Of a DNA stretch of 64,000 nt, positions 29,214 to 32,602 are shown piece by piece. Numbering within the stretch: position 1 is the first letter of the stretch; each line of letters starts with the position of its first letter. The notes under the pieces are model-generated. The model searched no databases and was not told the DNA's origin. It saw only the letters and a program-made list of their open reading frames with translations. Position numbers and translations under genes: made by a program. The DNA comes from Leclercia adecarboxylata (lineage in GTDB: Bacteria > Pseudomonadota > Gammaproteobacteria > Enterobacterales > Enterobacteriaceae). The stretch covers positions 3,658,001-3,722,000 of the forward strand of contig NZ_CP035382.1 in assembly GCF_006874705.1 (NCBI RefSeq), in the 5' to 3' direction.

Positions 29214-29242
29214 AAAAGGGAGCCTCACGGCTCCCTTTTTTT
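29214..29242. terminator. Terminator after icd, probably bidirectional
   Basis: The stem GGGAGCC-tcac-GGCTCCC (29218-29235) is preceded by four As and followed by seven Ts. It can end icd (+) and the opposing acyltransferase gene (-). Confidence 0.85.
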
Positions 29243-31220
29243 ATTGAAATACCGTGCGGAACATCGGCACCAGTAACTTATTGCCATATTCGCTCAGGTG
29301 ATCGTCATCGCGGTAAATCGGTAGGCCCGCTTTGCTGCCCGAACAGCGGCCGTCATGGCAGAGATAGGGCAACGGGTCGAGGATTTTTACCCCACACTGA
29401 CGAGCGGCCTGATCCTGTGCTGCCCATACTGCGGCATTACGCTGATGATACGCCTCCAGGGAGATGAATATTTGTGGCACCGGTTGCCCAAACATCATGG
29501 CGCGTGACAGGGTTTTCGGCACGTTGTACATCATTTCTGGCACAGGCCGGGTAATATACACGGTTCTCGCCTGAGCATAAGTGCAGGCGGTTTTGACCAG
29601 CTGTGCACTGTAGTGTTTGATAAAGTCCGGGGTGATTGTCCGTTGCGGTTGATCGAAGTAGGCCAGCGGGATATGCATTTTATCTTTTATATTGTGCTCA
29701 CCGAATGCATAGGCTGAGGTGCGGTTAATGATGATGAGCGGAATGTGCCTGTCGTACTTAACAATCTCCTGCGCAGCCCATTTGTTAAAACCATAGCAGT
29801 CTGCATCTTTGTTGTCCGGGTTTCGGTGGAGATCGTCAATGGTCGGACAGCTGACGTAGCTCCAGTCCAGAACGCCCTCATTGGGGTGCTTCAGCGCTTG
29901 TTGTACCGAGGTGATCATCGCGTCGGCATGGCTGTCCCCAATGACGATAGCTTTGATCGTTTCGCCGCCGAAAACGCAGGATGTCGAGGCGATGCCGGAC
30001 AGGGTAAAACAGGCGTCCTGTCTGGGGTTCACATTCTCAGACTCTCGGGCAATCCTTTCAATGGCGGGATCAATGCGCTCGTCCACGTGCAGAAATCTGG
30101 CGCCGACCGCCATCAACCCGGTAAGAAGCAGCGCTGAGCCAAGCACGCACTGCTGCCGGTTGAACGTAAGCTTACCCAGCTCTCTGCGAGTCGGGATTTC
30201 GATCCAGCGTAAGGAGAGCTCGCCCAATAGCAGGCTGAATACTATCCCGGCGGCAATCCACAGCGGATTATCCTGCTGGCCGGAGTAAGTCAGCAGGACA
30301 ACCAGCGGCCAGTGCCAGAGATAAACGGAATAAGAGCTGGCGCCCAGATGGCGCGTCAATGGATTAGCGGTGAGCCACGAATGTGAACGGTGCGCAGCCA
30401 GTACCAGCATTGTGCCCGCGACGGGTACCAGCGCCAGGTAACCCGGCCAGCGAAGAGTGGCGTCAAACATCACAATTGCCAGGATAATCAGGATAAAACC
30501 GAGCCCTTCCGCCAGCCTGGCCCAGGGACGGATCATCGGGCGCGTGCGGGTTATCCACCAGATCATTCCACCCGCCAGCATTTCCCAGATACGGGCGGGC
30601 AGCAGATAAAACGCTGCTCCAGGCCAGCGGCTGCTGGCATATATCGAGACCAGTAATGATGCCAGACCTATTGCCAGCAGGCAGACCTGCGCCCCACGAT
30701 ATCCCCACCAGCGCCACAGTACGATGCATCCAATCGGCAGCAAAATGTAGAATTGCCACTCTACCGACAGCGACCAGGTGTGCAGCAGCCAGGTCTCATG
30801 AGCGTCAGCCTCAAAATAGCTGGTTTGGCGCCAGAAGATGAGGTTCGAGATAAACAGCAGGGCGGCGGCGGCGTGGGCGGCGAGCGTATGATAATCGGCG
30901 GTGGGTAGCCAGAACCAGCCGGGGATGACCAGGCAGGCTAACAACATCATCAGCGCAGGAAGAATGCGTCGTGCCCGGGCGAGATAAAATTCCCATAATG
31001 AGAACCTGTTTTGCTCAAGCCCGTTGATAATGATGGCGGTCATTAAAAAACCGGAGATGACAAAAAACATGTCGACGCCGACAAAGCCACCCGCAAAACC
31101 AGGAACGTCAAAATGATAAAACATAACGGCCAGCACAGCCCATGCCCGGAGCCCGTTAATGTCATGGCGATACTGTTTAGAAGGAGAGGCGACCTTCCCT
31201 GAATGATAACTGGTAGGCAT
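29241..31220 (-). CDS. Acyltransferase-3/SGNH membrane O-acyltransferase, OafA-like
   Basis: 659 residues in two parts. The first (about 1-370) is an acyltransferase_3 membrane domain with about ten helices and the R-x10-H motif (Arg25, His36). The second is an extracytoplasmic SGNH domain with block I GDSHAD (from 428) and a terminal D-x-x-H (Asp638, His641). Proteins of this plan (OafA, OatA type) O-acetylate O-antigen or peptidoglycan; the substrate here is unknown, and LPS O-antigen is a reasonable guess. It lies in a variable spot beside icd, so acquisition by transfer is plausible but unproven. Confidence 0.82.
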   Translation of the reverse strand: MPTSYHSGKVASPSKQYRHDINGLRAWAVLAVMFYHFDVPGFAGGFVGVDMFFVISGFLMTAIIINGLEQNRFSLWEFYLARARRILPALMMLLACLVIPGWFWLPTADYHTLAAHAAAALLFISNLIFWRQTSYFEADAHETWLLHTWSLSVEWQFYILLPIGCIVLWRWWGYRGAQVCLLAIGLASLLVSIYASSRWPGAAFYLLPARIWEMLAGGMIWWITRTRPMIRPWARLAEGLGFILIILAIVMFDATLRWPGYLALVPVAGTMLVLAAHRSHSWLTANPLTRHLGASSYSVYLWHWPLVVLLTYSGQQDNPLWIAAGIVFSLLLGELSLRWIEIPTRRELGKLTFNRQQCVLGSALLLTGLMAVGARFLHVDERIDPAIERIARESENVNPRQDACFTLSGIASTSCVFGGETIKAIVIGDSHADAMITSVQQALKHPNEGVLDWSYVSCPTIDDLHRNPDNKDADCYGFNKWAAQEIVKYDRHIPLIIINRTSAYAFGEHNIKDKMHIPLAYFDQPQRTITPDFIKHYSAQLVKTACTYAQARTVYITRPVPEMMYNVPKTLSRAMMFGQPVPQIFISLEAYHQRNAAVWAAQDQAARQCGVKILDPLPYLCHDGRCSGSKAGLPIYRDDDHLSEYGNKLLVPMFRTVFQ

Positions 31221-31635: not shown

Positions 31636-31849
31636 AGCGAAGAACCCGGCGGGTGCCGGGCCTGCTCACATTAAAACCAGTTAAATTTGTCAGAAAGGAT
31701 CAGTAACAAGGAACTGGCACAAACAAGGTTAATACAGACCACGAATCGACTGGAAACGTTCATGTTATCAAAACCATTCTGCTTATGAATGAATTGTGCT
31801 AATAAGCGTAATAGCAAATAGCGGAACGATCAAATCAGACGGGCAGGGC

Positions 31850-31947
31850 AAAAAAAAAGCCCACGTAACGTGGGCAAGTAATACTGGAAGCAATGTGAGC
31901 AATGTCGTACTGAATACCTGAGTGATTTGCTCAACTATTCAGTGTTG
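31850..31947 (-). ncRNA. ryhB-2: RyhB paralogue (RyhB-2 / IsrE-type iron-responsive small RNA)
   Basis: On the minus strand, 31876-31908 is 33 bases that, as I recall the sequence, are identical to the conserved core of E. coli RyhB (ACGACATTGC...TATTACTT). The core ends at a perfect 7-bp terminator stem (GCCCACG/CGTGGGC, 31859-31875) with nine Us (31858-31850). A 5' stem-loop CTCAAC/GTTGAG precedes it. A Fur-box-like promoter lies directly upstream. The predicted RNA is about 97 nt; the 5' end near 31947 is inferred from a TATTAT -10. RyhB is an Hfq-dependent repressor of iron-using genes. The site next to yeaQ is where I recall the Salmonella second copy to be. Confidence 0.9.
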
Positions 31948-31952
31948 AGAAA

Positions 31953-31971
31953 GATAATATTTCTCATTAAC
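31953..31971 (-). promoter_or_regulatory. Fur box overlapping the ryhB-2 promoter
   Basis: The minus-strand 19-mer GTTAATGAGAAATATTATC matches the Fur consensus GATAATGATAATCATTATC at 15 of 19 positions. It overlaps the likely -10 TATTAT (31954-31959). Fur-Fe2+ binding here would repress the RNA in iron-replete cells. Confidence 0.8.
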
Positions 31972-32127
31972 GATTACAACCCCAATTTTTGTGCGGAACG
32001 TCGGTTAATCGCTTTTTTCTTAAATTTCTCTCGTGATGGCTATCACAAACTTGCAATTCTGAATCCTGTGCTAAGCTTTGTGTGTATTTGATTTGACGAC
32101 AAAAACCATACAGAGAGGAAAGCAGCT

Positions 32128-32376: not shown

Positions 32377-32391
32377 ACCGACGCTTCAGAC

Positions 32392-32421
32392 AAAAAGACC
32401 GCCGACAGTGGCGGTCTTTTT
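32392..32421. terminator. Bidirectional terminator between yeaQ and yoaJ
   Basis: AAAAAGACCGCC-gacagt-GGCGGTCTTTTT is symmetrical, with A-run and T-run, and serves yeaQ (+) and yoaKJ (-). Confidence 0.87.
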
Positions 32422-32428
32422 GCATCGG

Positions 32429-32503
32429 TCACCACCAGCCCAGCTGGCTACCCGCAACGGCCGCGATGGCGACAATCAGCATAATAATGGTCGTTTTTCT
32501 CAC
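32429..32503 (-). CDS. yoaJ: YoaJ, 24-residue membrane peptide
   Basis: The frame begins with GTG directly after the yoaK stop and encodes a 24-residue hydrophobic peptide with a basic start (RKTT) and the ending LGWW, as in E. coli YoaJ. It is a single-pass inner-membrane small protein of unknown role, translated from the same message as yoaK. Confidence 0.85.
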   Translation of the reverse strand: MRKTTIIMLIVAIAAVAGSQLGWW

Positions 32504-32602
32504 TTATCCCCCGGGCGCAGCGTAACCGCCGACAAAAAACCACGTTAAAAAGATGACCGCCGTGATGAAAATCACGATCGGGAACAGAATACCAAGCCGC
32601 AT
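32504..32602 (-). CDS. yoaK: YoaK, 32-residue membrane peptide
   Basis: ATG 32602 follows a GGTGG ribosome-binding site. The product, beginning MRLGILFPIVIF and ending GGYAAPGG, has one transmembrane helix and matches E. coli YoaK (32 residues). The stop TAA abuts the GTG of yoaJ. In E. coli these small proteins lie between dgcP and yeaQ, as here. Confidence 0.87.
   Translation of the reverse strand: MRLGILFPIVIFITAVIFLTWFFVGGYAAPGG

Follow-up and report, generated by a model that had tools for sequence, protein, structure and literature searches.

A second, intact-looking ryhB gene beside yeaQ in Leclercia adecarboxylata, likely orthologous to Salmonella RyhB-2

Introduction

RyhB-2 of Salmonella, also named IsrE or RfrB, is described as an island-encoded small RNA (PMC4211561, PMC8970401, PMC8002944), repressed by Fur and 98 nt long (PMC8970401). 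According to the published descriptions it has a 33-bp core in common with RyhB-1, together with a different predicted stem-loop and targets that are not shared with RyhB-1 (PMC4211561, PMC8970401, PMC8002944, PMC7944605); targets of its own, reached through the distinct 5′ region, have been proposed (PMC4211561). Both Salmonella ryhB genes are reported to be Fur-repressed, with Fur sites that overlap the promoters, and at ryhB2 sigma S counteracts Fur (PMC8970401). The published gene order is STM1273, ryhB-2 on the minus strand and yeaQ, with icdA about 27 kb away (PMC2515195).

Second copies of RyhB are also found in other enterobacteria. In Klebsiella pneumoniae a ryhB-2 gene was named in 2012, its expression being supported by start-site and expression profiling, and it is present besides the copy at yhhX/yhhY (PMC3415461); Yersinia likewise carries two copies, RyhB1 and RyhB2 (PMC10342277). 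In the literature searched, mostly open-access papers, no description of RyhB-2 in Enterobacter was found. The RyhB-2 type is already known from Salmonella and K. pneumoniae; what is new here is a further member, located beside yeaQ. The Leclercia gene is a second, intact-looking ryhB gene and likely an orthologue of Salmonella RyhB-2; with high confidence, it is predicted to be repressed by Fur and to block mRNAs of iron-using proteins through its core, probably with the help of Hfq.

The RNA gene and its neighbours

The DNA analysed, hereafter the window, is the whole stretch of 64,000 nucleotides from L. adecarboxylata (NZ_CP035382.1). Search of the 64 kb with cmscan gave a single Rfam match at gathering threshold, RyhB (RF00057), with a score of 70.3 bits (E 4e-11), above the gathering score of 55. 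A RyhB-family small RNA gene on the minus strand at 31852-31914 is thus confirmed, and the original prediction, made from the sequence alone, is backed here by the covariance model. The features of the locus are the following.

31850..31943, minus strand: predicted RyhB-2 transcript of about 94 nt, delimited by the RF00057 match inside it, promoter spacing, conservation and fold, the start being placed from the promoter
31852..31914, minus strand: match to Rfam RyhB (RF00057), full model 1-67
31859..31875, minus strand: terminator stem GCCCACG-TTA-CGTGGGC, from sequence and fold
31876..31908, minus strand: RyhB core, the target-pairing region
31909..31943, minus strand: 5′ hairpin typical of RyhB-2, 8 + 5 bp around a G.G mismatch with a 7-nt loop, from fold and covariation
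31947..31965, minus strand: second Fur-like 19-mer, overlapping the first and shifted by 6 bases
31951..31956, minus strand: predicted -10, TATCTT
31953..31971, minus strand: Fur-like 19-mer
31974..31979, minus strand: predicted -35, TTGTAA
32128..32376, plus strand: yeaQ, the divergent neighbour

The core, recognised beforehand as that of the E. coli RNA, is identical at 33/33 bases to ryhB of E. coli ATCC 11775 and represents the longest exact match between the two; exact identity to the RyhB-1 of the same genome extends over 30 bases, and 32/33 bases agree with the Salmonella core printed in PMC7944605. The terminator is as perfect as it had been described, an exact inverted repeat followed by nine U (31850-31858), i.e. 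a Rho-independent terminator with the U tract of an Hfq-type 3′ end. A 5′ hairpin, a mostly unpaired core and the terminator make up the predicted fold of the RNA (-27.4 kcal/mol, z -4.24, with 0/200 shuffles as low). Core and terminator type are those of E. coli RyhB (RyhB-1), whereas the 5′ region, the promoter and the locus, which in E. coli is yhhX/yhhY, differ from it.

The genome contains exactly two RyhB matches, of 84 and 70.3 bits. The stronger one, RyhB-1, adjoins a gene for an N-acetyltransferase, presumably yhhY, and a gene that we take to be ggt-like; in the E. coli record examined, ryhB adjoins an annotated yhhY. The gene in the window is therefore the second copy.

Its position next to yeaQ is upheld by both family model and gene order: the neighbour is an equivalog match to NCBIfam PRK10457, which we take to be the yeaQ model, and the order yeaQ-dgcP-yeaO-nimT is the one of the E. 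coli record. In full, the latter reads yeaQ-yoaJ-yoaK-dgcP-yoaF-yeaO-nimT, and in the window yeaQ is followed by a pair of short frames resembling yoaK and yoaJ, then by genes for a GGDEF protein, a DUF488 protein and a transporter of the CynX/NimT type. The short frames, which would encode 32 and 24 aa (about 32504-32602 and 32429-32503, minus strand), lie between yeaQ and the GGDEF gene and are named here after the E. coli order. In the same E. coli record yoaG adjoins yeaQ, and no RNA is annotated between these two genes.

RyhB-2 and yeaQ lie on opposite strands, as RyhB-2 (IsrE/RfrB) does in Salmonella. Indeed, a second RyhB on the minus strand beside a plus-strand yeaQ, on the same side and in the same orientation, is the arrangement published for Salmonella (PMC2515195), and the predicted length of about 94 nt is close to the 98 nt reported there (PMC8970401). 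The common core and the Fur sites over the promoter are further points of likeness, and the Salmonella RNA is also described with a large predicted 5′ stem-loop unlike that of RyhB-1 (PMC7944605). Conversely, the other neighbour in Salmonella is STM1273, and icdA is about 27 kb away on the published map (PMC2515195), while icd is at about 3 kb here. The second copy, the side and orientation relative to yeaQ and the hairpin support the reading of the gene as the RyhB-2 paralogue, Salmonella being compared by its published description; orthology with Salmonella RyhB-2, which rests on the published position, is likely.

Other features of this region were also noted. An acyltransferase-3/SGNH gene (29241-31220, minus strand) separates icd from ryhB-2; the corresponding interval in Salmonella is about 27 kb. 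Downstream of ryhB-2 and on the same strand, a 30-aa frame, MNVSSRFVVCINLVCASSLLLILSDKFNWF, is found at 31671-31763; it has no Pfam match and is likely a small membrane protein. A frame 62-70% identical to it is present at about the same place in 7/28 other loci of the genus, and locus L300 apparently reads a similar one. A match to Thr_leader at 32388-32496 (minus strand) was discarded, since it is below threshold (36.3 bits, gathering score 55), mostly covers the yoaJ-like frame together with a terminator, and likely arose by chance.

The 5′ hairpin

The 5′ stem-loop folds as originally described. The 5′ arm of the RyhB-2 type reads ACYGAATAGTTGAG-N7-CTCAGGTATTCRGT, and it differs from the RyhB-1 arm, as had been claimed: over 28 fixed positions the signature distance is 0-3 for 29 RyhB-2 loci of the genus and 19-22 for 30 RyhB-1 loci of the genus. 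Forty RyhB-2-type sequences, out of 56 distinct ones, were aligned and 13 pairs were scored. The pairs are formed in 97.9% of cells, a figure favoured by the structure having been drawn from the window sequence; sliding the alignment by 1-3 columns lowers pairing to 22-39%. Four of the 13 pairs have changed on both sides, in 19 cells compared with a shuffled mean of 6.5, and two pairs are invariant. The covariation score was reached by 0/500 shuffles, which ignore the kinship of these related sequences. At the level of sequence, the predicted hairpin thus shows compensatory changes.

Unusual constraint on the RyhB-2 arm was also considered and dropped: in the 24 genomes with both RNAs, mean 5′-arm identity is 0.81 for RyhB-2 and 0.80 for RyhB-1. 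Conservation thus does not set the arm apart from the RyhB-1 arm and lends no support to a special role. By analogy with Salmonella, RyhB-2 probably owes some targets not shared with RyhB-1 to its private hairpin.

Promoter and Fur-like sites

The original prediction placed a Fur box of 15 matches out of 19 at 31953-31971, over a -10 element TATTAT. The first part is confirmed as a sequence match: the 19-mer agrees at 15/19 positions with GATAATGATAATCATTATC, compared with 11-13/19 in the 28 other loci of the genus. It is one of two overlapping boxes; the second (31947-31965) scores 13/19 in the window, 13-14/19 in all 29 genus loci and 15-16/19 in six loci that adjoin yeaQ in other genera. 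A score of 15/19 was reached by 3/5000 mononucleotide shuffles of the 70-nt stretch that contains the box; it was not seen in any of the other 1720 tiles of 70 nt, taken on one strand from 35 related loci.

The -10 assignment did not hold, and TATTAT was probably placed three bases too far upstream. TATCTT appears to be the likelier -10, because it is 17 bp from TTGTAA and is kept in 28/29 loci of the genus and in 23/32 RyhB-2-type loci of other genera; at the -35, 26/29 genus loci read TTGCAT. In the slot of TATTAT (31954-31959), GATTAT is present in 27/29 genus loci and AATTAT in one, so that among them TATTAT is found in the window alone; it recurs in 5/32 loci of other genera (L101, L141, L152, L197 and L203).

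Occurrence in the genus and across the family

RyhB is present in 60/60 genomes of the genus, and 56 of them have two matches. In a 57th genome (G033) the RyhB-2 gene is split by a run of N, which brings the genomes with the gene to 57/60. Three genomes seem to be without it: around the only yeaQ hits of G005 and G008 (68-69% identical, likely a paralogue) no RyhB-2-like match was found, and in G023 yeaQ is kept (88%) and RyhB-2 was not found in the surrounding stretch. The loci compared within the genus are that of the window and 28 others, taken from the 55 other genomes with a second RyhB match; all 29 adjoin yeaQ.

The family sample comprised one genome per genus with RyhB, i.e. 93 genomes with 168 matches, plus 15 loci of further genomes; two loci with no recognisable core, L211 (42 bits) and L213 (33.9 bits), were left out of the counts. 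The 181 loci of other genera are split by signature distance into 32 at 12 or less and 149 at 15 or more out of 28. The RyhB-2 hairpin type was thereby found in 30 of the 93 other genera (32 loci in 30 genomes): 24 loci in 23 genomes are clear cases, at a distance of 6 or less, and eight are weaker (8-12), one of which, L210, has a RyhB match that falls short of the gathering score. A stricter exact pattern was found in 55/392 genomes and 21/154 genera, Enterobacter included. A near-complete exact pattern was present on 56 named contigs, none of them a Salmonella record; they belong to Enterobacter, Lelliottia, Leclercia, Silvania, Citrobacter, Klebsiella, Raoultella, Kosakonia, Trabulsiella, Kluyvera, Superficieibacter, Phytobacter, Yokenella, Pluralibacter and one Enterobacteriaceae bacterium.

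The chromosomal sites are diverse. Six of the 32 RyhB-2-type loci are beside yeaQ, ten are in the trpA region, five share a site with presumed beta-propeller and PP2C-like genes or with either of them, and 11 are elsewhere. The ten include seven with trpA in the stretch and three that share a dehydrogenase-like gene, which in K. pneumoniae lies between trpA and the RyhB-2 RNA. Among the 56 named contigs, yeaQ is found in 22, trpA in 16 and neither in 18, some of these with little flank. The gene icd is within reach in 8/22 yeaQ-linked named contigs. In three of these eight only an icd fragment of about 55 codons is present, which is what an integration site at icd would leave.

In K. pneumoniae ATCC 13883 the copy has the same 5′ hairpin type; unlike the one described here, it is away from yeaQ, about 1.6 kb beyond trpA and separated from it by two ORFs. 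This trpA-linked gene is presumably the ryhB-2 named in PMC3415461.

Several genomes have two copies of the RyhB-2 type: G155, at separate sites (L145 and L160), Kosakonia sacchari SP1 (L280 and L290), and G325 and G445, both by the exact pattern. In G141, which holds four RyhB matches in all, locus L158 contains two such copies about 1 kb apart. Genomes of this kind would allow moves between sites by duplication and loss.

In E. coli, a 151 bp query taken from the locus has a match in 5374/5426 genomes, at a median of one place and at three at most, and the one match examined is ryhB between yhhX and yhhY.

The Leclercia gene might instead have come from a duplication of RyhB-1 outside the Salmonella line and be only analogous to Salmonella RyhB-2, but this is improbable. 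RyhB copies do occur at many different sites across the family, and Salmonella is known here by published description; however, the hairpin, promoter and terminator are unlike those of the genome's own RyhB-1 and match those of yeaQ- and trpA-linked copies elsewhere. The gap in signature distance that separates the two types of locus also speaks against such a duplicate, as do the position and orientation beside yeaQ, which are those published for Salmonella (PMC2515195). Orthology with Salmonella RyhB-2 is thus retained as the preferred reading. It is very unlikely, too, that the gene is a decaying, silent copy retained by chance, as its apparent loss from 3/60 genomes of the genus and the median of a single matching place in E. 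coli might suggest, since other genera likewise preserve the core, the pairing of the hairpin, the terminator and the promoter, and the core in the window is exact.

On balance, we favour the view that RyhB-2 is an old enterobacterial second iron-sparing RNA with its own hairpin and promoter, rather than a Salmonella island gene: it would have moved at least twice between sites (yeaQ, the trpA region and others), partly by way of two-copy genomes, and be missing from E. coli, and what is called an island copy in Salmonella would be core sequence bordering a segment that was inserted between icd and yeaQ. Judged by its published position, the Salmonella gene is likely the yeaQ-side copy of this old, family-wide RNA, which calls into question its label as island-encoded and Salmonella-specific. 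The presence of RyhB-2-type RNAs in Enterobacter and numerous other genera makes the added role of a second RyhB testable beyond Salmonella, and offers an example of a small RNA whose hairpin, promoter and core are preserved although its position on the chromosome changes.

In a number of other genera an additional RyhB is flanked by genes that we take to be pspF-like and sapA-like (for instance at L037, L055 and L133); its 5′ arms are unlike those of both RyhB-1 and RyhB-2.

Targets and proposed mode of action

From RyhB biology elsewhere, Fur would repress ryhB-2 when iron is plentiful; iron shortage would release Fur and allow the RNA of about 94 nt to be made. Through its core the RNA would then base-pair with the mRNAs of iron-using proteins, which would thereby be blocked, probably with the help of Hfq, and decay of the target mRNAs may follow; both Hfq dependence and decay are extended from RyhB in other species.

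Pairing was predicted with the gene at L305, presumably sodB of this genome, named from its sequence and a PF02777 match. Its start codon is spanned by AGCAAUGUCGU, which is complementary over 11 bases to the beginning of the RyhB core. The predicted duplex has -20.5 kcal/mol for RyhB-2 and -19.7 for RyhB-1, with 7 and 12 of 300 dinucleotide shuffles, respectively, scoring as well, and both RNAs are thus predicted to act alike on sodB. In the sodA control, 95 (RyhB-2) and 90 (RyhB-1) of 300 shuffles were as good; the classic RyhB target sdhC gave no pairing signal with either RNA (122 and 119 of 300, respectively). The 11 perfect base pairs across the sodB start codon are a prediction with modest support.

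That the RNA acts chiefly on yeaQ or on the small downstream gene, as an antisense or local regulator, is most improbable: yeaQ is listed among RyhB-2 targets in Salmonella (review PMC4228915), but the predicted yeaQ start is located to the right of the promoter of ryhB-2, and the two RNAs should therefore not overlap. This start was predicted from a conserved CRP-like site and a -10-like TGTGCTATNCT, present in most of the leaders compared.

The CRP-like site, TGTGA-N6-TCAC at 32032-32047, lies between ryhB-2 and yeaQ and is present in 34/35 yeaQ-linked loci. It was rejected as an element of ryhB-2, from whose start its distance varies between 65 and 125 nt; because its distance to the yeaQ start is nearly constant (77-82 nt), it likely belongs to the yeaQ promoter.
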